From NCBI GenBank assembly GCA_020720405.1, contig DYOS01000004.1:10970-49429 (forward strand): 38,460 nucleotides of DNA, read 5' to 3'. The notes beneath the pieces are model-generated. The model worked only from the letters and a program-made list of their open reading frames with translations, searched no databases and was not told the origin of the DNA. Below are positions 13,222-32,359 of this stretch, piece by piece. A program made the position numbers and the translations under genes. The stretch's first letter is position 1, and each line of letters opens with the position of its first letter. The stretch is from Caldithrix sp. GTDB lineage: Bacteria > Calditrichota > Calditrichia > Calditrichales > Calditrichaceae.

Positions 13222-14064
13222 TTATCTGGCGATATTTAAAACCTGGTAGGGGAAAATAATATTCGGGTCAGTTATTACTTCTTTATTATTTTCAAATAAT
13301 TTTTGCCACTGGAAAGCATTACCATAAACATTCGAATACCCGGCAATTTTATATAAATATTCACCGCGAACAACTAAATGTTGATTCGGACCAACTTCCC
13401 TGGGTATTAAAAATGATTGATTTGGATAAATAAGATTTGGATCTTTGATCTGTTCTTTGTTCGAAGTATAAATCCTCATCCACGCATAGGCATCGCCATA
13501 AATATCAGGCATTTTAGCAATTTTCCACAGGTAGTCACCCCGTTGAACAGTATAAGAAGGAGGTACAGCAGATTTGCCTTTTCCTCTGGCTTGTTCAATC
13601 ATACTTGCAATTTCATTCAGATCCGCTTCATTTTCAGACATTACTCCAAAATGATTATTCTGAAGTTCGGTTAACCTGGCCTGAAGTTTATCGAGCTCAG
13701 CTGCATTTTGATAAATCTGATCAGGTGACATGGCAAGAAAAGCAGCAACATCTTTCTTTAGTTGCGATATGGCATCCTGATAGGAATTATATTCTTCCTG
13801 TGAAGTGCCAGTGGCTGCGAAAATATCATTCCAGGTCTGACCATATTCAGCATCCATCGACTGTAATTCTTTATTCAATTCATCAATCGTGGCATCCTGC
13901 TCGCTAATTCCACTATTACCCGCATCCAATCTTCCCTGCCATTCAGCGAGATAGGCATTATATTGTTCTTGTGTCATTTCTTCATAATTATATGACTGAG
14001 CATAAAGCGCAGAAGTAAGGAAGAAAAAAACACTGATTGTAATTAACGTTTTTATTGATCTCAT
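13222..14064 (-). CDS. Secreted coiled-coil protein with two C-terminal LysM-like repeats
   Basis: A 280-residue exported protein. The signal peptide MRSIKTLITISVFFFLTSALYA ends at A-Q. Residues ~25-165 are rich in Glu/Gln/Asn and heptad-like (TIDELNKELQSMDAEYG, ELDKLQARLTELQNN), probably an alpha-helical rod. Two repeats follow: YTVQRGDYLWKIAKMPDIYG and HLVVRGEYLYKIAGYSNVYG, each ending in DPNLIYPNQSFLIP or DPNIIFPYQVLNI, the LysM peptidoglycan-binding pattern with a family-specific 10-residue insertion (YGDAYAWMRIY). GGAGAAACC precedes the ATG. It is 32 bases downstream of a coiled-coil lipoprotein; the two probably work together in the periplasm. Confidence 0.9.
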   Translation of the reverse strand: MRSIKTLITISVFFFLTSALYAQSYNYEEMTQEQYNAYLAEWQGRLDAGNSGISEQDATIDELNKELQSMDAEYGQTWNDIFAATGTSQEEYNSYQDAISQLKKDVAAFLAMSPDQIYQNAAELDKLQARLTELQNNHFGVMSENEADLNEIASMIEQARGKGKSAVPPSYTVQRGDYLWKIAKMPDIYGDAYAWMRIYTSNKEQIKDPNLIYPNQSFLIPREVGPNQHLVVRGEYLYKIAGYSNVYGNAFQWQKLFENNKEVITDPNIIFPYQVLNIAR

Positions 14065-14096: not shown

Positions 14097-14372
14097 TTAT
14101 TTTGCAGTTTCAACACTCTGCATAACTTTATCCTTATCGGATTTCAGTTTTTCCAGATCTTTCTTTTTAGCCGCAATCTTCGCTTCCAAATCTTTCACTT
14201 CCTTCTTTTTATCAGCTAAAGTTTTTTCAGCAGATAAAGCTGCAGATTTTGTTTCTTCTAACTTCTTAATATCTTCCTCGCTTGGTTTCCAACCACAACT
14301 GCTCAGGCTAAAAAGACTAATCGTAAAAAGAATCAAAACTGATGTGTTTAAAGCATTAAAATATTTCTTCAT
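14097..14372 (-). CDS. Small coiled-coil lipoprotein, Lpp-like
   Basis: A 91-residue precursor. A basic start and hydrophobic core end in the lipobox LSSC with Cys26 as lipidation site; the mature chain is 66 residues. Almost all of it is a charged heptad coiled coil (ADKKKEVKDLEAKIAAKKKD) and the last residue is Lys (VETAK). That combination of lipidated N-terminus, single helix and C-terminal Lys resembles the murein lipoprotein Lpp of gammaproteobacteria, though no sequence relationship is claimed. The Shine-Dalgarno is near perfect (AGGAGG, 6 bases before ATG), suggesting high expression. It is followed by the LysM gene. Confidence 0.85.
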   Translation of the reverse strand: MKKYFNALNTSVLILFTISLFSLSSCGWKPSEEDIKKLEETKSAALSAEKTLADKKKEVKDLEAKIAAKKKDLEKLKSDKDKVMQSVETAK

Positions 14373-16261: not shown

Positions 16262-16295
16262 TAAAAAAAAAGCCGCAAAATGCGGCTTTTTTTTT
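16262..16295 (-). terminator. Strong intrinsic terminator ending the ExbBD/AgmX operon
   Basis: AGCCGCA (16271-16277) and TGCGGCT (16281-16287) pair around AAA, extended on both sides by A and T runs to a stem of about 15 pairs, symmetrical enough to work on either strand. It directly follows the stop of the AgmX-domain gene. A TATAAT sequence (minus strand) immediately follows its T run, upstream of aspS; there is no -35 at the right distance. Confidence 0.9.
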
Positions 16296-17394
16296 AACTA
16301 CTGAATATAAATTTTTGTCTGAAGGTCGCATCTCCTTCATTCTCATTTATTGGTTCAAAACGCCAACTGTTTATTCTTTGCCGAACACAGGACTCAACTT
16401 TTGAATTTCGTAAGGTTGATTCTATAATACGAACATCAGAAACACGTCCATCCGCCTTTATTGTAAACTGAACAGATATAGAACCCTTCAAGTTTGGATT
16501 GGTTCTTGCTTCTCTTTTATAACAATCTTCAATTGAGGCAGCATGAGAATTAACAACTTTCTCAATCGCATCCGATGATCTATTAGCAGAACGTGATCCC
16601 TTTCCTGAAACCGTACCTTTTTCCATCTTGAATGAGAGATTGCCCTGCCTTGAAATTGTTACACTTCCAGCTGGTCCGGCACCAGATTCGATTAAATCAT
16701 CAATACCAGCTGCATTGCCTGATTTTCCTGATGATCTTGCACCAAGAACTGTGCGTTGAGAGGATGATGAAGCAGTCTGAAGATTTCCAACACCACTTAA
16801 CACCTGATCAAGATTTCCGACTCCACCACCTCCGCTTTCACCTAAAACATCATATACAGCATCACCACTTCCTCCACCTCCACCTGCCGACAATTCAGCA
16901 AGGATACCTGTTCCGGCAACAGCTTGTTCCATTGCAGCTCTCTGAGCTTGTCTTTGGGCAGCAGCCTGTTGTCTCATGTCTCGTCTTTCCTGGGCTGATG
17001 TTCCTGTCGCCTCGGCGCGTCTTCCCTGATCACGCTCAGATCTGGCATCCTGCTGTGGCTTGGCTTCTTCAGGCTGATCGGTCACTCCACCTTCACCATC
17101 GTCAGAAGCTTCTGCCGCTTGCTGAGTTTCTTCGATGAATTCTGCCTGATAAATTTTTTGCAGATATTTTTTCTTAAAGGCCTCATCCATCAATTCCTGG
17201 GAATATTGAACATTTGCCATATATAATATAGTACCATAGACAATAACGAGAGAGCTTAATAATATAAGATAAAACCGATTATCGATTCCTTCTAAGAGTC
17301 CTCTCTCAAATTCCTTTGGAAAGGTTGATACCAATGGAAATATCCTTGCACTCCCTGGATTTTTAGATGGTTGAGATTTTTTCTGTGTTTCCAT
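16294..17394 (-). CDS. Membrane-anchored AgmX/PglI-domain protein (TonB/GltJ-like energy transducer)
   Basis: A 366-residue protein with TonB-like topology: a cytoplasmic tail, one transmembrane segment (YLILLSSLVIVYGTILYMA, ~42-60), a long Gln/Ala/Glu then Gly/Ser-rich periplasmic linker (~85-270), and a C-terminal domain (~275-366). That domain has Cys291 (IEDCYKREARTNP), Cys336 (ESCVRQRINSWRFEP) and SVQFTIKADGRVSDV, the AgmX/PglI C-terminal pattern, distantly TonB-like. It lacks the zinc-finger, GYF and FHA modules of myxobacterial GltJ/GltG. It follows two ExbD genes by 18 bases, so it presumably couples the ExbBD motor to outer-membrane partners. It is the last gene before a strong terminator. 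Confidence 0.88.
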   Translation of the reverse strand: METQKKSQPSKNPGSARIFPLVSTFPKEFERGLLEGIDNRFYLILLSSLVIVYGTILYMANVQYSQELMDEAFKKKYLQKIYQAEFIEETQQAAEASDDGEGGVTDQPEEAKPQQDARSERDQGRRAEATGTSAQERRDMRQQAAAQRQAQRAAMEQAVAGTGILAELSAGGGGGSGDAVYDVLGESGGGGVGNLDQVLSGVGNLQTASSSSQRTVLGARSSGKSGNAAGIDDLIESGAGPAGSVTISRQGNLSFKMEKGTVSGKGSRSANRSSDAIEKVVNSHAASIEDCYKREARTNPNLKGSISVQFTIKADGRVSDVRIIESTLRNSKVESCVRQRINSWRFEPINENEGDATFRQKFIFSS

Positions 17395-17412
17395 TATGGA
17401 CCTTTATTTTAC

Positions 17413-17898
17413 TTAACCCTTTTTAATGGTTAATAATCTCATTTTATAAAAATCTGATTTACTGCACGTAAACATTACTTTAAACAGGACTTCAAATGCG
17501 GTCTTATCATCACCCTGTATATTCACCTGATGTGTAAATTCCTTACCAACATCTATTTCAAGCTGCTTCTCCTGCCTCGCATATTCAGCCAATCTATCAG
17601 CGAGAGGCATAATTAACATTTGATTTTTATCAATTGTTGCGACATCAATAACCGGAACATCATTAACAAGTATTACCTGTTTAGCAATAGACACACTCAA
17701 TTCCTTTTTTGGCTTTTCGCCCTGCATTGATTCAGGAAGCCGCAAGGTTTCAGATGGTGTAACAAGTGCCCCCTCAGTAGAAAATGACTTAAGTAGAAAT
17801 AATAAAATAATGGTCATCATGTCCATCATTGAATTCATATTTAAACTACCCTGTTCGGGCTCAAGATGACGTTTGGATTTAGAAGGTTGAAAGGCCAT
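17413..17898 (-). CDS. ExbD/TolR-family protein with conserved Asp
   Basis: A 161-residue inner-membrane protein: short cytoplasmic N-terminus, one transmembrane helix with MNSMMDMMTIILLFLLKSF (~21-39), and a periplasmic domain of ~115 residues. Asp26 occupies the position of the proton-carrying Asp of ExbD/TolR (PLVDVMLVLL). The periplasmic domain keeps the ExbD-like beta strands (LSVSIAKQVILVNDVPVI; VNIQGDDKTAFEVLFKVM). With ExbB it should form a proton-driven motor. GGAGATAAA precedes the ATG. It lies 11 bases after a second exbD-like gene in which this Asp is replaced. Confidence 0.92.
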   Translation of the reverse strand: MAFQPSKSKRHLEPEQGSLNMNSMMDMMTIILLFLLKSFSTEGALVTPSETLRLPESMQGEKPKKELSVSIAKQVILVNDVPVIDVATIDKNQMLIMPLADRLAEYARQEKQLEIDVGKEFTHQVNIQGDDKTAFEVLFKVMFTCSKSDFYKMRLLTIKKG

Positions 17899-17909
17899 TT
17901 TATCTCCGC

Positions 17910-18464
17910 TTATTGAATTATGCTGCCAAAATTGACCTGAGGAAACAATAATTGTTGTTCCCCGGCATCATCCGTATAAGTTTGCAAATTATCCATTACA
18001 GAGATAATCACTTGATACTCGATGCCAGGGGATGCTGTTAAAACTGCCCGGTCTGAATCTTTAAAACCTTTACCGGTTATTGCCTTCTTTATCTCAATCA
18101 ATTTTTGCTTTAAAACATCATAGTCATATGATGCATCGGTCTTGAGAGGTACAGTTGGACCAGCGCCTTCTTCATTTGAAAGGAGAGTTTGCGAATTTCC
18201 TATAGTAAAACCATCAGATGTAATAGCTATTTTAAGACCTAATTTTAATTCATTCTCAATAATCTGATTCTGGTTTTCATTTGGCCCGGAAGCACCGACA
18301 TCCTTACTCGGCGGAACATTGATCTCGATTGAACCGATTTTAACCCATTCTGCACTTGCAATTAATAAAGGGATCAAAACAACCATCAGATTCATGACAG
18401 GACGAATATCTAATTCCATGTCAAGAGGTTGACTTTTTTGCCTTAGTGATGGTTTATATGCCAT
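17910..18464 (-). CDS. ExbD/TolR-family protein with Asn in place of the proton-carrying Asp
   Basis: A 184-residue ExbD-type protein. The transmembrane helix starts DIRPVMNLMVVLIPLLIASA; aligning PVMNLMVVL with the family's PLVDVMLVL puts Asn25 where the essential Asp should be. Asp19, six residues earlier, is at the membrane entrance and is not an obvious substitute. The periplasmic part keeps ExbD elements (GLKIAITSDGFTIGN; YDVLKQKLIEIKKAI; AVLTASPGIEYQVIISVMD) and is longer than usual. It lies between exbB and the second exbD, in an operon with spacings of 20 and 11 bases. A structural or regulatory partner of the Asp-bearing ExbD is my inference. Confidence 0.9.
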   Translation of the reverse strand: MAYKPSLRQKSQPLDMELDIRPVMNLMVVLIPLLIASAEWVKIGSIEINVPPSKDVGASGPNENQNQIIENELKLGLKIAITSDGFTIGNSQTLLSNEEGAGPTVPLKTDASYDYDVLKQKLIEIKKAITGKGFKDSDRAVLTASPGIEYQVIISVMDNLQTYTDDAGEQQLLFPQVNFGSIIQ

Positions 18465-18484
18465 AATATTGATTACCTTATTTA

Positions 18485-19144
18485 TTAACGATTACCGGTG
18501 ACTAAATTAATTAATTTTACCAGGTGCTCGTCCAATTCGTCAATAATCTTACTGGTTCTGTTCGAAATATAGGTATATATCATCAGGCTTGGAATAGCTA
18601 CCATCAAACCGAAAATAGTGGTATTCATGGCTGCTGCGATACCAGAAGCCAACAGTCTACTTTTGTCTGCCTCTGATACACCTTGACTACCAACCGCAGT
18701 AAAGGAAAGAATAAGACCATAAATGGTGCCCATCAGTCCGGTCAGGGTAGCAACGTTGGCTAACATGGAAAGATAGTTTGTACGTTCTTTTAATTTCGGG
18801 ATCACTTCCAAAGTCCCTTCATCAACGGCATTTTGAATGGCTCTAAAATCGAGTGTTTCACTCTCATCGGCCCGTTTAAGACCACGAAGAACGACAAATG
18901 GTAATGCTTTCTGTTTACCGCGCTCACATAATTCAATGGCTTTTTTCATATTTCCACCGGCAACTAATTTTCTGATTTCGGCCATGAATTTGTCGGCATT
19001 AACATTTGAACGAACAATAATATAATAAATTCTTTCCACAGAAATTGCCAGAGCTATAGTACCGAATAATGCAATAAAATACATATAACTCGATCCATCT
19101 GAACTCCAGGCAAAAGATTCAGCAAATTGTTTAAAAAAAAGCAT
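18485..19144 (-). CDS. MotA/TolQ/ExbB proton-channel family protein
   Basis: A 219-residue inner-membrane protein with three transmembrane segments (~20-43, ~127-150, ~168-192) and a cytoplasmic loop between the first two, as in ExbB/TolQ/AglR. TM2 carries ATLTGLMGTIYGLILSF and TM3 carries AAMNTTIFGLMVAIPSLM, including the Thr residues that line the channel in the family. The cytoplasmic loop holds KKAIELCERGKQKALPFVVLRGL. AGGAGG precedes the ATG by 8 bases. Its gene order exbB-exbD-exbD matches aglR-aglQ-aglS in myxobacteria; tolQ with a single tolR would be the normal Tol-Pal layout. Confidence 0.94.
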   Translation of the reverse strand: MLFFKQFAESFAWSSDGSSYMYFIALFGTIALAISVERIYYIIVRSNVNADKFMAEIRKLVAGGNMKKAIELCERGKQKALPFVVLRGLKRADESETLDFRAIQNAVDEGTLEVIPKLKERTNYLSMLANVATLTGLMGTIYGLILSFTAVGSQGVSEADKSRLLASGIAAAMNTTIFGLMVAIPSLMIYTYISNRTSKIIDELDEHLVKLINLVTGNR

Positions 19145-19166
19145 TTAAAATCCTCCTACTTACTAT

Positions 19167-19478
19167 TTATCGTTTTCGATTAATTAATATTGTAATATCA
19201 ATTCTTGGTTTAGGCTCATTTATATAAGTTTCATCTAAACTAATTACTTCTGCTTCTCCGGTTATTTCTTTTATAAATGATTTTTCAAGGTTTACGTCAT
19301 CAAATTCTGGTTTTATTCTTTCACTGAATAAAATCACACCTGGTTTTTCAACTGTAATTTTTATTTCAGTTGTCTTCAATTCGATTATTTCGTTCGAAGT
19401 ATTTCGATTTTGTAATTCCTGAGAATACCCGAAACCAATACAGCAAAACAAAAATATTATTAAGACCAATGCTTTCAT
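19167..19478 (-). CDS. Small secreted protein of unknown function in the ExbBD operon
   Basis: A 103-residue protein not recognised from any family. It has a signal peptide (MKALVLIIFLFCCIGFGYSQ) and a mature region of about 83 residues dominated by short alternating beta-like strands (IELKTTEIKITVEKPGVILF; PRIDITILINRKR). It contains no Cys after the signal peptide and no lipobox. It begins eight bases after the stop of the 1580-residue TPR gene and ends 22 bases before exbB, so it is almost certainly part of the same system, acting in the periplasm. Confidence 0.8.
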   Translation of the reverse strand: MKALVLIIFLFCCIGFGYSQELQNRNTSNEIIELKTTEIKITVEKPGVILFSERIKPEFDDVNLEKSFIKEITGEAEVISLDETYINEPKPRIDITILINRKR

Positions 19479-19486
19479 ATTAACAC

Positions 19487-22400
19487 CTATTGATTAGGAT
19501 TAATCCAGTTCTTTCTAAGTATGCTGATTCTTTGAAGAACTATAGGATCGACATCAATTTTTTTGACTTTAGTCTTCTCCTCAGCAACCGCAGTCAGATC
19601 AGCCGGAAGTATTTCCAGATAACCATAAACCTTTAAACCACCACCCGTATAATCTTTATCTTCAACATCAATACCAAGAACATTAGCACCATTTTTTAGG
19701 TAAATATTAAAAATATAGAAATCTGTTGAATCAATTTCTGAATATGAATTAGCTTCATCATCTAAAATATATTCGCCATTCATATATAATCGGAAATCGT
19801 TATCTGCGGATGCATATATTTGTCCACCAACCGGTGTGCCATTTACATTAAACATTTTTCTAAAAAAGGCGATTGAATCCACGGCAACCGAGAATGATTG
19901 CTTTGATATTTCAGATGAATCGGCAGTCATGGACAGCAGAGTATCAGAAACTGCAAAACTATCTATACCTGAAACTACAGAAGCTAAACTATCAGATTCA
20001 AAACTATCTGTATTCATCAACTTCGGCAGCCATATAGCGTCAGGGTTAGCATTAAGTCTCGCGAACTGATTTTCGTTATTAAAAATTATAGTGGCGTATT
20101 CCCAATTTGAATCATCAAAACCAAGTTTTGTCCACTCCTCTCCTGGATAAGTTCTGACCACTTTCCAGCTTTCATCTGATGATAACAGTATTTTTTCTTT
20201 CTCAATACTTCCTGAATATTGGACAGGATCCAGTTTTATAAGCTTATAACTAAGTTTATTTGCCCAAAGACTTTTAATTTGATATTGCTCTTTAACGCTA
20301 TTGGCCGTTTCTAATATGGATTTGGAATTATCGCTTAATAAATAATAATAGTTATCGAAAAACGTCCTTCCATCATCATAATTATAATTTTGTGTAGAAT
20401 CGAACAAAGCTTCATACTTTATTCTGTTCGCTTGTGCTAAAAGTGATTTTTGAAGCATTGAGTCCGATATTTCAACCGAAAACTGAAGTATGTTGTCCTT
20501 TGTGCTTCTTACCAAATCGTTTTTTATTTGATGTTCTTCTGCCATTGTTAGCGTATTCTGGTAATTCTCAACTACAGACTGAGCTAAAATCTTTGTATAA
20601 TCAGTAAGCTGATTCGCATTATTGTCTAGACCATAGTAATCCAAACCTGAGTTAGTTTTGGAGCCAAAGTCCAGTTCCAAAAGCCTCTCTAGCTCTTTTG
20701 TCACATTTCCATATTCAACTAGAGCCAACATTGCGAGGCTTTTGTATTCTGAAGCGAGAATATTTGAAGTTAATAAAACCTGACGTTTTGATTCCTCAAC
20801 AAATTTATTTGAGAGTCCTAAGTTTCCGGCTTCAGCAATATTTCTTAGATGGGCATCAATAGTATTATTTATTGCTGGTTTGGCGACTTTTTGAAGAACA
20901 GTAGCACGGTAAAGCAGAACCTGTAATGGATCTTTAACCGGTGCTAAAATATTGATAGATTGCTCAACATTCTCACTGATTAACGTTGCCTCAGTATAAA
21001 GCAATTCGGAAATTTTATCTTTGGCTTTCACCTGATATTTAAAGGCCAGTTGTTTTGTGGAATCCAGCTCTGCAGCCCTTTTCAATAGGGAACCCGACGT
21101 ATCATCAACAACTGTAATTTTTAATGAATCATTCAAATTAATGCCTAATTTATCGGCAATTATCGGGATATTATCTACTACTTTTCTATACTCATCAACA
21201 GCATGATCATATAACGCGGCGGATTGTTCAATAATCTTTTTTCTTTGAACAAATCTCTTCGTATCGTCAAGATTTGTATCGATCTCCTGGCTTGAATAAG
21301 CTGCAGCAAATTCTTCAAACGATCTGGCAATATTATAAGTAGCTTCAAAGCTTCTCGGAGATCCAAAGGAAATTACTTTCGAATAGGTTTTATTCAACTC
21401 AGTCAAAAGGCTTTTCATTTTACTTTGATCTGTAGTGATTCTGCTTTCAGGCTGAACGAGTTTAATAGCCAGAAATTCATTGTGTAAAATATCGGCCAGT
21501 TTATTTACAGCTTCTGCGGCGATAAATGCATTTGGATCTTTTCCTTGTTTACGAAAAAGCTCACTGCGATTAATGGCTTTGTTGAATTCAGCCTTGGCGG
21601 TTTCCGTCTCACCATTTTTTAGGTAATAAACACCTCTTTCGTAATAAGCGGTAATCGTTTTCGGATCATCCGGATATTTTGCAGCAAATTCGTCATAAAT
21701 TCGGTTGGCTTCTTCTATCTTACCAAGCTTCAAAAATAAATCGGCGTTACTGAAGAACAAATCAATTGTAAAGGGCTGTAAAGGATAACCGGCAATATAT
21801 TTGTTGTTAATCCGAATTGCATTTTCCCAATCCTGAGCCTTTTTAAAGTAAAGACTCGAATTATAAAGTGCGACTTCAGCATTAGGACTTTGAGGATATG
21901 TAGTATATATCCTTTCGTAAACCATAGCCGCCTGATCGAATTGTTCAAGTTCAATATATCCATCCGCCATATATTCCAGAGCATCAAGGGCGTATTTTGA
22001 TTTAGGAAAAGATGTGGGAAGAATATTTAAAGTCTCGACAACACGATTCCAGTCTTTAACCTTCCGGTAATTCAAACCGGCATTAAAAATTGCAGATTCA
22101 ACAAGTCGCTCATCATTGGTCGCTTCTTCATAAACTCTATAAAATTCATTAGCTGCAGCAAAATAATCACCTTGTTCAACTAAGTATTCAGCATTTTTAA
22201 AAATTGCCTGTCCCAGTCGCTTCCCTGCAAATTCTCTTTGTTCTTCAGATAATTGTGTATCGGACATGATTTTCTTAGCAATGATTTCAGAATCCTTGAA
22301 TCTGCCAAGCGCAAAATAGGAATCCATAATAGATCTCATAGCCAGGCTTTTTTCTTCGGCTCCTGGGAATCTCTTAACCAAAGTTTGAAAATATACTTTT

Positions 22401-24229
22401 GCCTCGCCAAATTTTTTATGATTATAATAAATCCCACCTGCAGCAGCCAGAAATTTTGGAGTAAACTCGCCGAACGGAAACAGCCGGATATAATTATCAT
22501 AAGATTCAATAAGTCTGGTTTCTTCGAAAGAGAGCAATTCCGGATTAAGTTGAGTTATGTCAGTCAAATCAACGGTTGATGTGTCGATCTTTGTTTTTAC
22601 AGCTAATAGTGTGTCAGCCACGTTTACTGCGTTCAAAGCCGCATCATGTTGATGAGTTTTTTCTATATAATCATTACTAACCCGAATGTACTCTTCATAA
22701 GCATCTTCAAACCGGCCAAGTTTGCTGTCCAGTGTATAGGCATATGACCAATTGATATCATAGGCATTGCTGTCGGATGGGAAAAACTGAAGATAATTTT
22801 TACAACTCTCGGCAAATTTAGAATACAATTGATTTGCACTTTTCGCACTTGATTCTAATTCCTGGGCTGCAATAAGATCGACTGAAAGATTCGCCCGAGT
22901 TGCTGCTTCTGATAAAGTATAAGCCCTGTTTAAATAAGTAATTCTATCCGGAATTTGAGATTGTTCAAGATTATTATACCATTCAGAATTGGGGCCATAA
23001 TTAATGTACAATCTTAATCTTGTTTCATATACTTTGGCATCATGATGGCCTGCATATTCAGCATTTATAATATTCTGTACAATTCTCGGTGCGTCCTCAT
23101 ACGCTGGATACATATCAAGTAAGGTCTCAAAAGCATAAATTGCTTTAGGTAGTTCATCTATTTTCTGATATGTCTCACCAATAGAGCGCAATATTTTTAC
23201 GCCATAATCCCGGCCACCGATTTTCTGAATAAAATTGCGCGCTTTATCGGTTCCGTTCTTCGTGTAACTCTCATCTGTAAAACTTATACCGATATAAGTA
23301 ATTGCTTCGTCAAATACACTTGGCTTACTGATTTTCTCTTTAGGATCTAATTTCTTTGCCCTGGCAATATCATCGGCGACTGCAACAAAATATGTAATTG
23401 CTTCCGGATAATATTTTGGATTTGAACCTGATAGCTTATAATAACTCCAACCTAATTTATATAATGCTTCATCATATCTTCGGCTTTCCCGATATGTCAA
23501 AACTTTTTTATACAATTGTATGGCTTTTTGGAGTTCAATAAATATCTGTTGTTCGTCATTTTTATCTTCACGCGGTGAAAAGAAATATTCCGCAAGCTGC
23601 ATATAAGACTCGGCAGCAAAATTACTTTCGGGATATTTATCAATCACTTCCTGAAATATTTTTCTGCTCTCAACATTCTGCTCCATTTTGCTCAAAAGCC
23701 AAGCCTTAGAATATAGGGCATCATCCGCGAAATCAGAACCCGGGTATTCTTTTAGTAATCGATCATACAAACTGATTGCCTTGCCGTAATCGAATTTTGG
23801 AAACTTCGGCTCAGTTGGTATCCCGGTTATTTTGCCATCATCAAAAAGTTGCAATTGCTTGCTATATTCTTCAAGCTGTTCATCAAACTTAGCTGCCTTT
23901 ACTTGCTGTTCCGTTTCAGCCTCTTCAATATAGTATTCTGCAATCCTAATATATACTTTATCCCTGTCTTTAATTGAACTGCCTTTTTCACCGAGGAAAC
24001 TTTCGCTTATTTCCATTCCCTGGGTTCTTGTTTTTTCACTTTCAAGTAAAAGTTGCTCGGCCTGTTTTGAATAATATTCCCGTATTCGTATCAGATCTTC
24101 AACACTCATTTGCTTGAATAAAGTATCACCAGCCGCAGGGTTATCAACGGTCTGACCAAACAGAGAAAAGCTGATTACAAATAACCAAAAAATTATTACT
24201 GACTTTTTCAAATTCATATTTCTATACAT
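19487..24229 (-). CDS. Giant exported TPR-repeat protein with C-terminal beta-sandwich-like domain
   Basis: A 1580-residue periplasmic or outer-membrane protein. The signal peptide ends FSLFGQ (~26). A coiled-coil segment follows, then many tetratricopeptide-type helical pairs from about 150 to 1000, for example YGKAISLYDRLLKEYPGSDF, ESRKIFQEVIDKYPESNFAA, AAMVYERIYTTYPQSPNAEV and RIYDEFAAKYPDDPKT. Residues ~1000-1340 are helical without clear repeats. Residues ~1352-1541 look like a galactose-binding-type beta-sandwich (WTKLGFDDSNW, FFRKMFNVNG, SADNDFRLYMNGEYI, NVLGIDVED). M5 is an alternative start. Giant TPR proteins accompany Agl/Glt machines (AgmK/GltI); homology to those is not shown. 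It starts 27 bases after the preceding gene. Confidence 0.88.
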   Translation of the reverse strand: MYRNMNLKKSVIIFWLFVISFSLFGQTVDNPAAGDTLFKQMSVEDLIRIREYYSKQAEQLLLESEKTRTQGMEISESFLGEKGSSIKDRDKVYIRIAEYYIEEAETEQQVKAAKFDEQLEEYSKQLQLFDDGKITGIPTEPKFPKFDYGKAISLYDRLLKEYPGSDFADDALYSKAWLLSKMEQNVESRKIFQEVIDKYPESNFAAESYMQLAEYFFSPREDKNDEQQIFIELQKAIQLYKKVLTYRESRRYDEALYKLGWSYYKLSGSNPKYYPEAITYFVAVADDIARAKKLDPKEKISKPSVFDEAITYIGISFTDESYTKNGTDKARNFIQKIGGRDYGVKILRSIGETYQKIDELPKAIYAFETLLDMYPAYEDAPRIVQNIINAEYAGHHDAKVYETRLRLYINYGPNSEWYNNLEQSQIPDRITYLNRAYTLSEAATRANLSVDLIAAQELESSAKSANQLYSKFAESCKNYLQFFPSDSNAYDINWSYAYTLDSKLGRFEDAYEEYIRVSNDYIEKTHQHDAALNAVNVADTLLAVKTKIDTSTVDLTDITQLNPELLSFEETRLIESYDNYIRLFPFGEFTPKFLAAAGGIYYNHKKFGEAKVYFQTLVKRFPGAEEKSLAMRSIMDSYFALGRFKDSEIIAKKIMSDTQLSEEQREFAGKRLGQAIFKNAEYLVEQGDYFAAANEFYRVYEEATNDERLVESAIFNAGLNYRKVKDWNRVVETLNILPTSFPKSKYALDALEYMADGYIELEQFDQAAMVYERIYTTYPQSPNAEVALYNSSLYFKKAQDWENAIRINNKYIAGYPLQPFTIDLFFSNADLFLKLGKIEEANRIYDEFAAKYPDDPKTITAYYERGVYYLKNGETETAKAEFNKAINRSELFRKQGKDPNAFIAAEAVNKLADILHNEFLAIKLVQPESRITTDQSKMKSLLTELNKTYSKVISFGSPRSFEATYNIARSFEEFAAAYSSQEIDTNLDDTKRFVQRKKIIEQSAALYDHAVDEYRKVVDNIPIIADKLGINLNDSLKITVVDDTSGSLLKRAAELDSTKQLAFKYQVKAKDKISELLYTEATLISENVEQSINILAPVKDPLQVLLYRATVLQKVAKPAINNTIDAHLRNIAEAGNLGLSNKFVEESKRQVLLTSNILASEYKSLAMLALVEYGNVTKELERLLELDFGSKTNSGLDYYGLDNNANQLTDYTKILAQSVVENYQNTLTMAEEHQIKNDLVRSTKDNILQFSVEISDSMLQKSLLAQANRIKYEALFDSTQNYNYDDGRTFFDNYYYLLSDNSKSILETANSVKEQYQIKSLWANKLSYKLIKLDPVQYSGSIEKEKILLSSDESWKVVRTYPGEEWTKLGFDDSNWEYATIIFNNENQFARLNANPDAIWLPKLMNTDSFESDSLASVVSGIDSFAVSDTLLSMTADSSEISKQSFSVAVDSIAFFRKMFNVNGTPVGGQIYASADNDFRLYMNGEYILDDEANSYSEIDSTDFYIFNIYLKNGANVLGIDVEDKDYTGGGLKVYGYLEILPADLTAVAEEKTKVKKIDVDPIVLQRISILRKNWINPNQ

Positions 24230-24256
24230 ACTTTTATCTCGTTTTTTTGGCCAGGA

Positions 24257-26866
24257 TTATTCTTCAATCTCGATATCCGGTGGTAAAGTTGTATCTGGAT
24301 TTTGATTCTGCTCGGTATCATGTGTATCAAAATAGCTTTCCTCAAACTGCCTGGTCAATTCCTCTCGTTCTCTCAACCGCTCCTGTTCTCTGACTTTCCG
24401 GGTCATCAAAGTAATCTCATCTTCAATTAATTTAAGAGTATGTTTTATATTTGCTTTTCTATTTTCAAGGAAGGTGTTAATTTCTTCGATTTGTTTATTC
24501 ATGTACTCAATTTCTTTATTCTTCTGGTTTCGTATAGCAAAATTTACATTTGCCATTCCAAAAGCTCCGTAATCACTCCATCGATCCAAATCTATATTAG
24601 TTTGTCTTAAAGACAGCCCAAATGTTTGGGTTTCCATGAAATCCAGTTTTTTAAGAATATCATCATATCGATTATAAGAAAGCTCAAGTTGAATTTGTTT
24701 TTTATAATCTCTTTGATTCTTTGCATTTAAAATTTGCACATCCAGCGCACTCATCTTCCTGACAAGCTCAAGTCTTTGATTTTTTACATCCTGGCGCATG
24801 GCTTGAATTTTTGCATTCTCATTCTCGACTACGCTTTGCCTCCTGGCAAAAGGATGCTCATCAAAATAATTAATACCTATTTCAGAATCAGAAGAAATAT
24901 CTGATTCATTTATTGCGCGATAGATTCGCAATTGCATTCTTTCAATTCTTTTGACTAACTCGCTATTTTCCTGCTGCTTTGCTATGCTCTTAAGTCTTTC
25001 CAGTTCATCCAATTGCGCCTTGAGCTTTTTAACTTCAGAAGAGGTGGCGATACCGGAAGAACTGAGATCAGCAAAGGCAAGGTTTCGGATTGGGATTCGT
25101 ATTTTTTCCTTAACTGCTTTGGCTCGTTCATAGGTCTGCGTATTTTTCTCTTCCAATGCTTTATTCATTACTTTATCTGCGGTATTGGAAATTTCAAGTA
25201 ACTTAACTTGCTCAGTATTCATATCATCCGATATTTGCTTGACCGCTTTTGAGCGGAAAGCATAATCAAACTGATCAATCGCGGCAAGTGGCTTTTCTTC
25301 AAGCTGATAGATATAGCCTAATAAAGTTTTAGCTTCAAGATAATAATCAGATGTATAATAGACATCCAGAAGAAGTTCAAGATGTTTCCTTGCCGTAGAA
25401 AAATCTTTTAAATCCATTATTGGCTTATTGATTTCAATTTTATAGAAACTCCAGGCATAGCCGATCAAAACCTTGTCCATCTCTGAAAAATTTGAAGGTA
25501 TTAAATTAAAAGTCTCAATGGCCTTAAAATATTCACCCTGTTCATAATTAATATAGCCAAGTTTAAGTAATAATTTAAATCTAAGTTCAGGGCTCTGATC
25601 TGGTAGATCAGTCAGTTTATTTAAAATAATCTCAGCCTGATTTAAATTATGGCTTCCGGCATAAGCTTCTGCCAGTATAAGCTGGGTATTCAGAAAGTAC
25701 GTTGAAGTGTTATTCGTTTCCAGACAGTGATCGATTGTTTCCTGATACAAACCGGCTTTAAGGCTCGAAACAACGGTCAGGAATCTGGCTTCATCCAGAT
25801 TAGGATCTGTTGTCGAAACGATAATCTGCATCTGTCGGAACAAATCAATAACTGAATTATAATTTTGGGAATGATACTCAATATACATCATCCTTTTATA
25901 TGAATACGGGATGAAAGGTGATGATGAATAATTTTCAATTAAATTTCGATATAATTTTTTGGCCGTTGAATATCTTGACAAAAAATAATTGGATTCCGCC
26001 TGATAATACAGACAGTCATCCAGTACCCCAATATTTTTATATCTTTTAAAAATCTCATCAAAACTACGCTCTGCTAAATCAAACATACTGTAATTATAGG
26101 CCTCTGCTGCTTTCTCCAGTTCACGGTTTAGCATTCTCAATGCATCAACCTGGGTTCCGTTTTTCAGCATCCTGTTCTTAATGATCTGCAGATCAGTCCA
26201 CCGGACTTGATACTTTAGTCGTTCGGTCAGCTTCCATTCCTTGTATAAATCAAAAATTGTGGCATCGGCATCAGAATCGGTAGCCGACTTTGCTGCTACT
26301 TTTCCACCAAAAGATTGGACAAATTTGCTTCGACTCTCTTTCATCCCCTGAGAAATTTTTGGATTCTGATTCATTGAAGCATTCGGGTCAAGCTGTATTA
26401 TTTCTTCGGCGATAAAAAGAAGTTGAATGGCATCCTCAATGACTTTCTGCCTCTTAAAATCGATGACTCCGGAATCTTTGGTCTGTTCAATTTTTGATTC
26501 AAGCTCAGATATAAATCCATCAAGTGAATGGTTGCCCATCGCTGAAAGCCTGGTCTGAAGCGCTTGAATTTCCTGCAGTCTGGTATCCAGGCGATCAAAA
26601 TAAGTATTCCGTATTTCTTTATAATTTGTAACCCTTGATCTTATCTCGTCATTGACCATTCTGATCTGCTGAACGATGAACCGTTCATCGTCAATGGATT
26701 CCTGGCCGAATTTAACCATAAGATTATCGACATATCGCTGAAGTGCTGCGTTAAACTCAGGATTTCCAGTTCCAGGATTGGATTGGGCTACTAAAGAATT
26801 AGTAAAAAACTGGAAAAGAAAAACAAGTGTATTGAATGAAACCAACCTGAAGAATTTTACATTCAT
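24257..26866 (-). CDS. Exported TPR and coiled-coil protein, first gene of the ExbBD/AgmX operon
   Basis: An 869-residue exported protein beginning MNVKFFRLVSFNTLVFLFQF with cleavage after LVAQ. The N-terminal ~250 residues are helical with heptads (LDTRLQEIQALQTRLSAMG). TPR-like pairs occupy ~240-570 (AERSFDEIFKRYKNIGVLDD, AKKLYRNLIENYSSSPF, AIETFNLIPSNF, AIDQFDYAF). The C-terminal third (~610-850) is mostly coiled coil (KLKAQLDELERLKSIAKQQE; RKVREQERLREREELTRQF). It ends in an acidic, Pro-rich tail (PDTTLPPDIEIEE). It resembles assembly-scaffold proteins, but no named family is recognised. A promoter lies 40-75 bases upstream. Confidence 0.85.
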   Translation of the reverse strand: MNVKFFRLVSFNTLVFLFQFFTNSLVAQSNPGTGNPEFNAALQRYVDNLMVKFGQESIDDERFIVQQIRMVNDEIRSRVTNYKEIRNTYFDRLDTRLQEIQALQTRLSAMGNHSLDGFISELESKIEQTKDSGVIDFKRQKVIEDAIQLLFIAEEIIQLDPNASMNQNPKISQGMKESRSKFVQSFGGKVAAKSATDSDADATIFDLYKEWKLTERLKYQVRWTDLQIIKNRMLKNGTQVDALRMLNRELEKAAEAYNYSMFDLAERSFDEIFKRYKNIGVLDDCLYYQAESNYFLSRYSTAKKLYRNLIENYSSSPFIPYSYKRMMYIEYHSQNYNSVIDLFRQMQIIVSTTDPNLDEARFLTVVSSLKAGLYQETIDHCLETNNTSTYFLNTQLILAEAYAGSHNLNQAEIILNKLTDLPDQSPELRFKLLLKLGYINYEQGEYFKAIETFNLIPSNFSEMDKVLIGYAWSFYKIEINKPIMDLKDFSTARKHLELLLDVYYTSDYYLEAKTLLGYIYQLEEKPLAAIDQFDYAFRSKAVKQISDDMNTEQVKLLEISNTADKVMNKALEEKNTQTYERAKAVKEKIRIPIRNLAFADLSSSGIATSSEVKKLKAQLDELERLKSIAKQQENSELVKRIERMQLRIYRAINESDISSDSEIGINYFDEHPFARRQSVVENENAKIQAMRQDVKNQRLELVRKMSALDVQILNAKNQRDYKKQIQLELSYNRYDDILKKLDFMETQTFGLSLRQTNIDLDRWSDYGAFGMANVNFAIRNQKNKEIEYMNKQIEEINTFLENRKANIKHTLKLIEDEITLMTRKVREQERLREREELTRQFEESYFDTHDTEQNQNPDTTLPPDIEIEE

Positions 26867-26909
26867 AATCTTGACCTGCTTCTACTCAATTTGCTGAAGA
26901 GACGGTATA

Positions 26910-26937
26910 AATATAACATAAATTTATTTAGTGTCAA
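26910..26937 (-). promoter_or_regulatory. Sigma70-type promoter of the TPR/ExbBD/AgmX operon
   Basis: On the minus strand, consensus TTGACA (bases 26937-26932), a 16-base spacer and TATATT (26915-26910) precede the ATG at 26866 by about 45 bases, leaving room for a short leader with GCAGG near the start codon. It is the best promoter match I see in the window, and it marks the left border of the ATP-synthase operon. Confidence 0.65.
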
Positions 26938-26989
26938 TGATTCGTGTTTTGAATATTACTTCAATAATGATATGAATCAGGAGACACTA
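26929..26989 (-). promoter_or_regulatory. Interrupted inverted repeat spanning the atpC stop and the operon -35 box
   Basis: Plus-strand TAGTGTCAATGATTC (26929-26943) mirrors GAATCAGGAGACACTA (26974-26989): 13 base pairs in two blocks (7 and 6) with a small asymmetric bulge and a 30-base interior. One arm contains the TTGACA of the promoter, the other the atpC TAG stop codon. There is no T run, so it is a weak terminator at best. It may be an operator at the promoter or an mRNA 3' stem for atp. Confidence 0.45.
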
Positions 26990-27394
26990 TTTAAATTTAA
27001 CAACATTCATTCTGTTCACGGCACGCATCAAAGAAACCTTAGCTCTTAAAAAATCAATTTTACCGGTTTGGTCTGCCAGACGCTCCCGGGCTCTTTTCAG
27101 AGATTCAATAGCTCGCATCTCATCAATATCACCGGCAAATTCAGCAGTCTCGGCAATAATCTGAATCTGATTATTATTCACCTCAAAAAAACCACCGCTT
27201 GTCGCTAAATATTTCATTGAGCCACCAAGCTCTTCGATTTTGATCATTCCGATTTCGACTAAGGATAACATCGTCGCATGATTCTTAAGTACCTGAAACT
27301 GGCCGCTAAAACCGGGAACCGTGCAGGTTTTTACATCATTCTGATAGGTTCGGCCGAAAGGTGTAACGATCTGTAAGTACAAATCAGGCGCCAT
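26987..27394 (-). CDS. atpC: ATP synthase epsilon subunit
   Basis: A 135-residue F1 central-stalk subunit. The N-terminal beta-sandwich (LYLQIVTPFGRTYQNDVKT, GFSGQFQVLKNHATMLSLVE, GGFFEVNNNQIQIIAETAEF) and the C-terminal helical hairpin (IDEMRAIESLKRARERLADQ) are both present and of normal length. It is the last gene of the ATP-synthase run. It is separated from atpD by 102 bases, an unusually large gap for this operon that contains a small dyad. Confidence 0.96.
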   Translation of the reverse strand: MAPDLYLQIVTPFGRTYQNDVKTCTVPGFSGQFQVLKNHATMLSLVEIGMIKIEELGGSMKYLATSGGFFEVNNNQIQIIAETAEFAGDIDEMRAIESLKRARERLADQTGKIDFLRAKVSLMRAVNRMNVVKFK

Positions 27395-27451
27395 TTAACA
27401 AAACTCCAAATCAGTTCGGATTCCTGAAGTAAAACTTAAATAGAAAAATGC

Positions 27452-27481
27452 CCGGATCGGTATAAAAAAATTAAAATCCGG
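27452..27481 (-). promoter_or_regulatory. Small dyad in the atpD-atpC gap
   Basis: CCGGAT (27452-27457) and ATCCGG (27476-27481) form a 6-base stem with an AT-rich 18-base loop containing seven A. The gap between atpD and atpC is 102 bases, while other joints of the operon are near zero to 30. It could tune the ratio of the epsilon subunit through mRNA processing; the stem is too weak to call a terminator. Confidence 0.3.
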
Positions 27482-27496
27482 ACTTATCGTCCAAAA

Positions 27497-29775
<2,279 letters not shown>

Positions 29776-29777
29776 CC

Positions 29778-31298
29778 TTATGCCTCGGTCTTAAATCCGG
29801 CCAGGAAGTCACTCAGAATTTTGTCAAGCTGAGCTTTTAATTCATCCGACAGGACTTTTTTGGTCATAATCATTTCAAAAACCTGACCATGTTTCATTTC
29901 CATAAAGGCCAGGAATTCTTTTTCGAATTTTTTTATTGCACCAACAGGGATTTGGTCCAGAAAACCATTTGTGGCCGCATAGATCAGAACAATCTGGCGA
30001 TCGAAAGACATAGGCACGTATTGACCTTGTTTCAGAATTTCGACCAGTCTTTCACCGCGACGTAACTGCTTCTGCGTGGTTTGATCCAGGTCTGAACCAA
30101 ATTTGGCAAAGGCTTCCATTTCACGGTACTGAGCCAGATCAATCCGCAGACGTCCGGCGACCTGTTTCATGGCTTTAATCTGGGCACTTCCGCCGACACG
30201 GGAAACAGAAATTCCAACATTTATGGCCGGACGGACACCGGAGTAAAACAAATTAGATTCCAGGAAAATCTGGCCGTCAGTAATGGATATTACATTAGTC
30301 GGAATATAGGCAGAAACGTCTCCGCCCTGTGTTTCGATAATCGGCAGAGCTGTCAAAGATCCGCCGCCAAATTCATCACTCAATTTAGCAGCCCGTTCCA
30401 GTAAACGCGAATGCAAATAAAACACATCGCCAGGATAGGCTTCCCGACCAGGAGGACGTCTTAACAAAAGCGAAACCTGGCGGTAAGCCCAGGCATGTTT
30501 GGTCAGGTCATCATAGACTACCAGTGCATGGCGGCCATTATCACGAAAATATTCACCCATGGCTGCACCTGAATAAGGTGCCAGAAATTGCAGAGGTGCG
30601 GGATCGCTGGCATTGGCCGAAACAACAATGGTGTAATCCATTGCCCCAAAGCTTTCAAGTTTTTTTACTACTTTGGCTACTGTTGAAGCTTTTTGACCGA
30701 TGGCCACATAGATACAGACTACATCCTTACCCTTTTGATTGATTATCGTATCCAGTGCAACCGCAGTTTTTCCGGTTTGCCGGTCACCGATAATTAATTC
30801 ACGCTGTCCACGGCCGATCGGTATCATCGAATCTATTGCTTTGATACCTGTGGCCAATGGCTCATTGACTGGCTGCCTGGTAACCACACCAGTGGCTTTC
30901 CTCTCCACGAGCTGGGAATGATTAGTTTCAATTGCACCTTTTCCATCCATAGGTAAACCAAGCGGACTAACCACCCGGCCCAGCAGGGCATCACCGGTCG
31001 GCACTTCAACCACACGACGGGTTCGCTTAACTGTATCGCCTTCTTTAATCAGGGTGTCTTCCCCGAAGAGAATAACACCAACATTGTCTTCTTCCAGGTT
31101 GAATACCATACCCATTACATCATGCGGAAACTGGACCAGCTCACCGGCCATAACTTTTTCCAGACCATGAATCCTGGCGATACCATCCCCAACCTGTAAA
31201 ACCGTACCAACTTCATAAATATCACTGGTACGCTCAAAATCTTTGAGTTGTTTTTTCAGAATTGCAGAGACTTCATCAGGTCTTACTGCCACACTCAT
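29778..31298 (-). CDS. atpA: ATP synthase alpha subunit
   Basis: Non-catalytic nucleotide-binding F1 subunit of 506 residues. Walker A is [15 protein letters not shown] (~170-184); the arginine-finger region is in [20 protein letters not shown], and [21 protein letters not shown] is fully conserved. The N-terminal beta-barrel ([19 protein letters not shown]) and C-terminal helical domain are complete. It follows atpH by 23 bases, with a GAGGTAATTTC ribosome-binding region. Confidence 0.98.
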
Positions 31299-31321
31299 TG
31301 AAATTACCTCTTTTTCTTAAC

Positions 31322-31852
31322 TTAACCTATGGCCATTCTATGCCGGATTTTTTCCAGCTGGGTTCTGATACTGCTGTCGACGACCAGATCATCAATTCTG
31401 ATAATAAATCCACCAATAATAGACGGATTAACAACCTGGTTCAGAATGAGATTTTTACCGGTCAGTTTTTCAACTGACGCTTTTAGCTGGCCGATCTGAG
31501 CATCCGTAAATGGGACAACACTAACCAGCTCACCTGATACCTGATTTTGGTGCTTCATCAGAAATGTATTAAAGGCCAATAATATCCGGGACATCTCAGC
31601 CAGCCGTCTTTTCTGTGCCACCAGGCTGATAAAACGCAACACCAAATTACAAACCCGGTGCTCAAACAGATCAAATAAAATTCTTTCTTTTTGAACTGAA
31701 CTGTAAAGCGGATTACTCATTACTTTTCCGAGCTCGGGATGCGCAGAGAAAACATCCTGAATGGTGCGCATATCTAGTGCAACCTGCTCCAGACCATTTT
31801 CGGTGGCCAGCTCAAAAAGCGCTTTGGCATATCGTTTAGCTACCCGTGACAA
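31322..31852 (-). CDS. atpH: ATP synthase delta subunit
   Basis: Peripheral-stalk cap of F1, 176 residues. It begins SRVAKRYAKALFELATENG, the family N-terminus, and ends with GGFIIRIDDLVVDSSIRTQL, the diagnostic C-terminal signature. The intermediate NLVLRFISLVAQKRRL is also typical. It lies 12 bases after atpF. Confidence 0.96.
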   Translation of the reverse strand: MSRVAKRYAKALFELATENGLEQVALDMRTIQDVFSAHPELGKVMSNPLYSSVQKERILFDLFEHRVCNLVLRFISLVAQKRRLAEMSRILLAFNTFLMKHQNQVSGELVSVVPFTDAQIGQLKASVEKLTGKNLILNQVVNPSIIGGFIIRIDDLVVDSSIRTQLEKIRHRMAIG

Positions 31853-31864
31853 AGGCCAACCTCA

Positions 31865-32359
31865 TTAATTGTTCATGGTTTTAGGCAGAGACTGCAAATA
31901 GGCATCAACAACGGTTTTCTGCCTGGCTTCATCTAAGTTTTCGAGGAGAATTTTCTCCGCAGCGCCAATGGCCAGGTCGGCTACTTCAGCACGCAACTCA
32001 GCCAGTGCGCTCTCCTTCAGCGCTTCAATTTCCCGGGTGGTTTTCTCAAGCAATATTGCCGATTCAGCCCGGGATCTCTCCAGTATTTCCTGCCGTAATT
32101 TTTCAGCCAGCAACTGGTTTTCTTTAATAATTTTCTGACCCTGATTTTCAGCTTCAGATAAAAGCTGATTATGCTTTTCAAGCAGGGCCTGGGCTTCAAG
32201 CCTCTGCCTTTCGGCATTCTCCAGGTTTTCTTTTACGCTTAGTTCGCGCGATTCAATTGCCTGAAGAATTGGCTTAAGGGCTGTTTTGGAAAGGATGACC
32301 ATGACAATGGCAAAAGTAATCCATGTCCAGATCATCATACCGGGATCGAGTTCAAGCAT
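31865..32359 (-). CDS. atpF: ATP synthase b subunit
   Basis: Peripheral-stalk subunit of 164 residues: one N-terminal transmembrane helix (MMIWTWITFAIVMVILSKTA, ~8-27) and a long charged right-handed coiled coil (RQRLEAQALLEKHNQLLSEA) ending in the delta-binding tail (AEKILLENLDEARQKTVVDA). Only one b-type gene is present, so the stalk is presumably a homodimer. It lies 27 bases after atpE. Confidence 0.96.
   Translation of the reverse strand: MLELDPGMMIWTWITFAIVMVILSKTALKPILQAIESRELSVKENLENAERQRLEAQALLEKHNQLLSEAENQGQKIIKENQLLAEKLRQEILERSRAESAILLEKTTREIEALKESALAELRAEVADLAIGAAEKILLENLDEARQKTVVDAYLQSLPKTMNN

Follow-up and report, generated by a model that had tools for sequence, protein, structure and literature searches.

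The core complex of the Myxococcus Agl/Glt system (AglR, AglQ, AglS, GltC, GltD, GltE and GltG) also exists as a standalone operon of unknown function outside Myxococcales; it has been reported in Gamma-, Delta- and Betaproteobacteria and in one Fibrobacter, and its genes are not sufficient by themselves for gliding in Myxococcus (Luciano 2011, PMC3169522). In Fibrobacter succinogenes, the genes FSU_2397 to FSU_2403 encode, by locus number, two tetratricopeptide repeat (TPR) proteins of 84 and 147 kDa, an undescribed product (FSU_2399), ExbB, ExbD, ExbD and TonB (PMC6851124, PMC4619616). The vWA force-transducer operons of the Planctomycetes-Verrucomicrobia-Chlamydiae (PVC) group combine a TPR gene, a tolQ-like gene, two unlike tolR-like genes and a gene for a transducer of TonB topology (PMC12204202). 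The system analysed here is a seven-gene operon of Calditrichota, located in a 38,460-nt window (the whole stretch of DNA that was analysed, to which all coordinates refer) of the 3.33 Mb genome of a Caldithrix sp., assembled in 266 contigs. It probably encodes a machine that spans the envelope, is related to the Agl/Glt core complex, is driven by the proton-motive force (PMF) and is built on an asymmetric ExbD stator.

Like the Agl/Glt core complex, this operon encodes one ExbB-type and two ExbD-type proteins in a single cluster, a transducer resembling GltG, and TPR proteins that are secreted. However, homology of the latter to GltC, GltD or GltE is undetectable with the models used, the Calditrichota transducer lacks the FHA domain, and the order of the two ExbD proteins seems reversed by size (AglQ, 162 aa, then AglS, 194 aa, versus 184 then 161 aa here). 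Furthermore, AglQ and AglS are both stated to carry the Asp residue (PMC9389320), whereas the 184-aa ExbD2 of Calditrichota never does. Since orthology of the TPR proteins is putative and the Asp state differs from that stated for AglQ and AglS, membership of the core-complex type is likely but not proven. The Fibrobacter set resembles the operon in gene order, in protein sizes and in the secretion of its TPR proteins, a likeness drawn from published descriptions; it differs in being induced on cellulose and has been followed in envelope proteomics. The PVC operons differ by their transducer, which terminates in a vWA fold instead of an AgmX/TonB domain. The preliminary description of the locus had proposed a proton-driven trans-envelope machine related to Agl/Glt but leaner, a view with which the gene content and order, matching those of the core complex and of the Fibrobacter set, and the similarity to GltG without its FHA domain are in agreement.

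The two ExbD proteins are not equivalent. In E. coli, Asp25 of ExbD is the proton-carrying residue. ExbD1 carries an Asp at position 26, within SMMDMM in the window sequence, and keeps it in 34/34 sequences, whereas ExbD2 has Asn25, within PVMNLM, also in 34/34 sequences; when aligned by profile with ExbD proteins of solved structure, this Asn falls on E. coli Asp25. The retention of Asp by one ExbD and the constant presence of Asn in its partner are new. The pore threonines of ExbB (T140, T175 and T176) are invariant in the alignment, so that the hallmarks of 5:2 PMF motors, pore Thr in ExbB and at least one transmembrane Asp in ExbD, are both found. The simplest reading would be a stator made of an obligate ExbD1-ExbD2 heterodimer in which protons bind at one site. 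Current models of 5:2 motors suppose that two proton sites are equivalent and that ten ions pass per turn; for an axle with one subunit permanently devoid of Asp, five ions per turn and steps of 72 degrees are expected, and such an axle, if confirmed, would be a natural single-site version of this rotary motor. Such an asymmetric pair also bears on the choice between hetero- and homodimers, which a review calls open for AglQ and AglS (PMC9389320).

Among 72,556 plasmid records, a search with ExbB pointed to an operon of the Vibrio alginolyticus plasmid pMBL96 (NZ_CP013488.1), whose ExbB is 35% identical to that of Calditrichota. As in Calditrichota, a small secreted protein, ExbB, an unannotated Asp-less ExbD, an Asp-bearing ExbD and a protein of TonB topology are encoded in this order, but the Vibrio operon also encodes a barrel protein of the outer membrane, a small lipoprotein and a large secreted protein with no detectable TPR homology, and the C-terminus of its transducer is unrecognised. 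The first Vibrio ExbD, annotated as hypothetical, reads NITPFLSLMVVLIP, with Ser at the place of Asp, and the second reads LNLVALMDIF, with Asp retained. Each Calditrichota profile prefers the Vibrio protein found in the same position (34.2 versus 2.1 bits for the ExbD2 profile, 18.2 versus 5.2 bits for the ExbD1 profile), and hhalign gives 95% for the N-terminus of ExbD2 against the Asp-less Vibrio ExbD. When the plasmids were searched with ExbD2, with E values up to 10, the same Vibrio records were the sole matches; ExbD1 gave chance matches only and the transducer none. Since this distant operon has an Asp/Ser pair, the loss of Asp in one partner is not a Calditrichota accident. An Ig-like protein gene lies upstream of the Vibrio operon and a LapG-like cysteine protease gene downstream of it.

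The operon is real and strongly conserved. Among 40 Calditrichota genomes, 23 of which are of high quality, ExbD2 is present in single copy in 37, including all 23 high-quality ones. A scan of named records with the 184-aa ExbD2 yielded 34 loci, nearly all titled Calditrichota or Caldithrix; the few other titles include a bin of Caldisericaceae and another of KSB1. In the 33 loci that were fetched, 20 of which are complete, the order, strand and approximate lengths of the seven genes are constant as far as the contig reaches, and an ortholog of the 869-aa TPR protein is found wherever the contig extends that far. Recurrence of the gene order outside the source genome, on which the preliminary description depended, is thus phylum-wide. 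The operon sits throughout between the atpC/F1-ATPase genes and aspS, wherever contigs allow, and this constancy of order and flanks speaks for vertical descent and for a role of a general kind. Scans of viral contigs yielded no relatives.

The seven genes are minus-strand open reading frames separated, in gene order, by 27, 8, 22, 20, 11 and 18 bp (Table 1). Their common strand, products and spacing of 8–27 bp, as first described, agree with the reading frames and with the domain calls, which rely on Pfam and NCBIfam models. Signal peptides, judged by eye, are present on the 869-aa, 1580-aa and 103-aa proteins.

Table 1. Features of the Calditrichota operon and its surroundings, in gene order within the 38,460-nt window.
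Feature	Position	Strand	Remarks
F-type ATP synthase genes b, delta, alpha, gamma, beta, epsilon	26987-32359	-	directly upstream, phylum-wide
sigma70-like promoter match	26910-26937	-	not kept in relatives
TPR protein, 869 aa, secreted, all-helical	24257-26866	-	signal peptide, no lipobox Cys
TPR protein, 1580 aa, secreted, C-terminal sugar-binding-like beta-sandwich (~aa 1345-1545)	19487-24229	-	
small secreted protein, 103 aa, phylum-wide	19167-19478	-	aligned in 34 sequences
ExbB/TolQ/AglR-type channel subunit, 219 aa	18485-19144	-	MotA_ExbB 83.7 bits; PDB match to TolQ
ExbD2, 184 aa, partner without transmembrane Asp	17910-18464	-	ExbD domain 37.1 bits
Asn25 codon of ExbD2, site of the proton-carrying Asp	18390-18392	-	invariant, 34/34
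ExbD1, 161 aa, canonical partner	17413-17898	-	ExbD domain 51.3 bits
Asp26 codon of ExbD1, predicted proton-carrying Asp	17821-17823	-	invariant, 34/34
GltG-type transducer, 366 aa, AgmX/PglI (TonB-like) domain	16294-17394	-	domain 103.4 bits, cut-off 40
intrinsic terminator	16264-16290	-	by eye; position kept in 29/32 loci

The transducer comprises an invariant cytosolic FPKEFE motif, one transmembrane helix, a linker rich in glycine and a TonB-like domain in which two Cys are invariant. The GltG model matches its residues 25–365, that is to the end (E value of 1.5e-21; 76.7 bits, for an equivalog cut-off of 650), so that the protein can be viewed as a GltG devoid of its cytoplasmic FHA half. 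Its TonB-like C-terminal domain would also suit an energiser of nutrient import of the TonB type. This role is very improbable, as another ExbB-ExbD-ExbD-TonB set of the same genome has a far better TonB domain (76.8 and 70.3 bits) and the coupling of TonB-dependent transporters needs no TPR scaffold.

The AF2 model of the 869-aa protein (pLDDT of 84) is all-helical and its Foldseek matches are generic TPR proteins. This protein is close in length to SprE/PorW; this assignment was rejected, as it has no Cys near the end of its signal peptide and only a weak hidden Markov model match (E value of 3.2e-4), and SprE is absent from its top 50 Foldseek matches. The C-terminus of the 1580-aa protein has a profile resembling lectin and rhamnosidase modules, and its model (pLDDT of 75) has a fold like the sandwich domains found in GH2 enzymes, the TM-scores being modest. 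The 103-aa protein has no Pfam or NCBIfam match, and the TPR proteins match none of the gliding models in NCBIfam.

This sugar-binding-like domain, together with the GltG-like transducer and the two ExbD partners, would fit gliding or the transport of a surface polymer, as carried out by the Agl-Glt/Nfs machineries of Myxococcus. Such a function is improbable: the operon was not found to contain any Group A Glt genes, a housekeeping role would better account for universal conservation, and the motility suggested by the preliminary description is not supported, in view of the flagellar genes of the genome, of the insufficiency of the core genes for gliding in Myxococcus and of the genome paper of Caldithrix abyssi, which reports no Bacteroidetes-type gliding machinery. 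The flagellar cluster, which includes MotAB, and a second MotAB-like pair lie on contigs C10 and C42 of the Caldithrix sp. genome.

From gene anatomy, the functioning of the machine, including its 5:2 stoichiometry, the heterodimer, the transfer of force and the client, can be proposed as follows. An ExbB pentamer would surround an obligate ExbD1-ExbD2 heterodimer, whose proton-binding Asp would be on ExbD1 only. The motion of this stator would be relayed by the single-pass GltG-type transducer, the TonB-like periplasmic domain of which would act on a periplasmic scaffold formed by the two long TPR proteins and the small secreted protein. The scaffold would in turn act on an outer-membrane client, for which SprA/PorV is the tentative first choice and outer-membrane integrity a weaker second one. 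Several data weigh against this scheme. Rather than pairing with ExbD1, ExbD2 could assemble into a homodimer of its own that is non-conducting. The transmembrane helix of the window transducer has no counterpart of the SHLS-motif His of TonB and TolA, and no His is apparent in the alignment; therefore, the coupling to ExbB may differ. The operon encodes no outer-membrane protein. Finally, the large proteins of the Vibrio operon have no detectable homology to the TPR or transducer proteins of Calditrichota.

The first of these clients would be that of a motor replacing GldL/GldM and energising protein export through SprA, the translocon of the type IX secretion system (T9SS). SprA is matched in 40/40 genomes, 38 of them above the cut-off, and lies near PorV-family genes; in the Caldithrix sp. 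genome, it is on contig C227 (3164–9169). Most papers on the T9SS nevertheless describe it as specific to Bacteroidota. GldM and GldL were found in 0/40 genomes, a result obtained without a positive control, the 14 control genomes giving no SprA or GldL positive. The phylum-wide presence of SprA without detected GldM/GldL is a new observation and raises the question of the energy source of T9SS-type export outside Bacteroidota, for which the operon is a universal candidate. Within the window itself, the minus-strand gene at 2344–4932 encodes an FG-GAP/ASPIC protein of 862 aa whose sorting tail is of T9SS type A (TIGR04183, 45.9 bits, cut-off of 23); this protein is probably a T9SS cargo encoded near the operon. 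The operon is a candidate T9SS motor because the phylum has the pore, the cargo tags and a universal unassigned PMF motor but no known T9SS motor, and the absence of Bacteroidetes-type gliding machinery from the published Caldithrix abyssi genome is consistent with this view. In Fibrobacter succinogenes, the TPR protein FSU_2397 has been reported in vesicles as part of a complex that also contains cellulases, an OmpA protein and a protein of the fibro-slime type (PMC6851124), and T9SS signals have been reported on the cellulases of this organism; these data are suggestive of surface protein display, not a proof of it.

Other observations moderate this proposal. The link between SprA and the operon is one of co-occurrence, both being universal in the phylum, and they are separated by 46 kb in one closed genome but by 318 kb in another. 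The lipobox seen in SprE/PorW is absent from the TPR proteins. As for GldLM, it resembles the predicted machine as a PMF-driven motor of 5:2 type acting on the outer membrane, but the transducer and scaffold encoded by the operon are unrelated to it in sequence. Taken as a whole, energisation of T9SS export by this machine is possible, if still tentative; the more specific scheme, in which SprA-type export would be driven by an ExbB-ExbD1-ExbD2-GltG motor and not by GldLM, with an asymmetric dimer binding protons on one side, is somewhat more doubtful. If it held, the T9SS translocon and its motor would be evolutionarily separable modules, and the core complex described in 2011 without known role would gain a possible function. 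Caldithrix abyssi, a cultured thermophile, makes the role of the operon testable.

The machine could otherwise act as a substitute for Tol-Pal, maintaining the outer membrane and constriction. Both are PMF motors with a periplasm-spanning transducer and YbgF-type TPR proteins, but the operon lacks TolB and Pal, as the preliminary description had noted, and has two unlike ExbD proteins and giant TPR proteins. Above the curated cut-offs, equivalogs of Pal and TolB are found in 0/40 genomes, which led to the rejection of a standard Tol-Pal system, the second outcome that would have refuted the preliminary description. Since these cut-offs were set on other phyla, a divergent Pal could be missed, and OmpA proteins of ~217–246 aa scoring 80–95 bits do exist in some Calditrichota genomes. 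In the Caldithrix sp. genome, OmpA domains are restricted to two MotB-like proteins and one 469-aa protein. A TolB_N match on contig C112 was discarded, as the LpoB model fits this 403-aa protein better than TolB. A universal, single-copy operon that is linked to housekeeping genes and encodes YbgF-like TPR proteins would suit such a replacement. However, it includes no Pal-like lipoprotein, and contig C146 of the same genome carries a separate TonB/TolA-ExbB-ExbD set. A Tol-Pal substitute therefore appears rather unlikely.

The operon had also been described as bounded at both ends, and this stands for its 3' end only. The terminator, GCCGCA-TTT-TGCGGC-T9, is by eye a clean hairpin followed by T9, 3' of the last gene, and a terminator-like site is found 3' of the AgmX-like gene in 29/32 loci, against 6% of random windows. 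At the other end, the TTGACA-16-TATATT promoter is present, with 11/12 consensus positions, but scans yield many chance sites of this type and it is not conserved in relatives (mean best score of 8.4 versus 7.9 for shuffles). In none of 22 relatives does a terminator lie between atpC and the first machine gene, and the gap between them is 7 bp in two. The 5' boundary is thus unsupported, and the machine genes may be read through from the atp operon, as the distal part of its transcription unit, or be under their own weak or variable promoter. This atp linkage, the Asp-less ExbD partner and the SprA-without-GldLM context all go beyond the preliminary description.

The synteny of the region is much wider than the operon. 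From 5925 to 32359, the genes atpA-G-D-C, the machine, aspS, a lipoprotein gene, a LysM gene, phoH, a thiolase gene, nusB, a phosphoesterase gene and secA are largely syntenic across the phylum. The lipoprotein and LysM genes were not counted as parts of the machine, because the whole stretch to secA is conserved as well and a terminator intervenes. Located after aspS in most of the phylum, these two minus-strand genes encode a 91-aa coiled-coil lipoprotein with an Lpp-like layout (14097–14372) and a secreted protein of 280 aa that combines a coiled coil with two LysM domains (13222–14064); both are possible tethers between the outer membrane and the wall.

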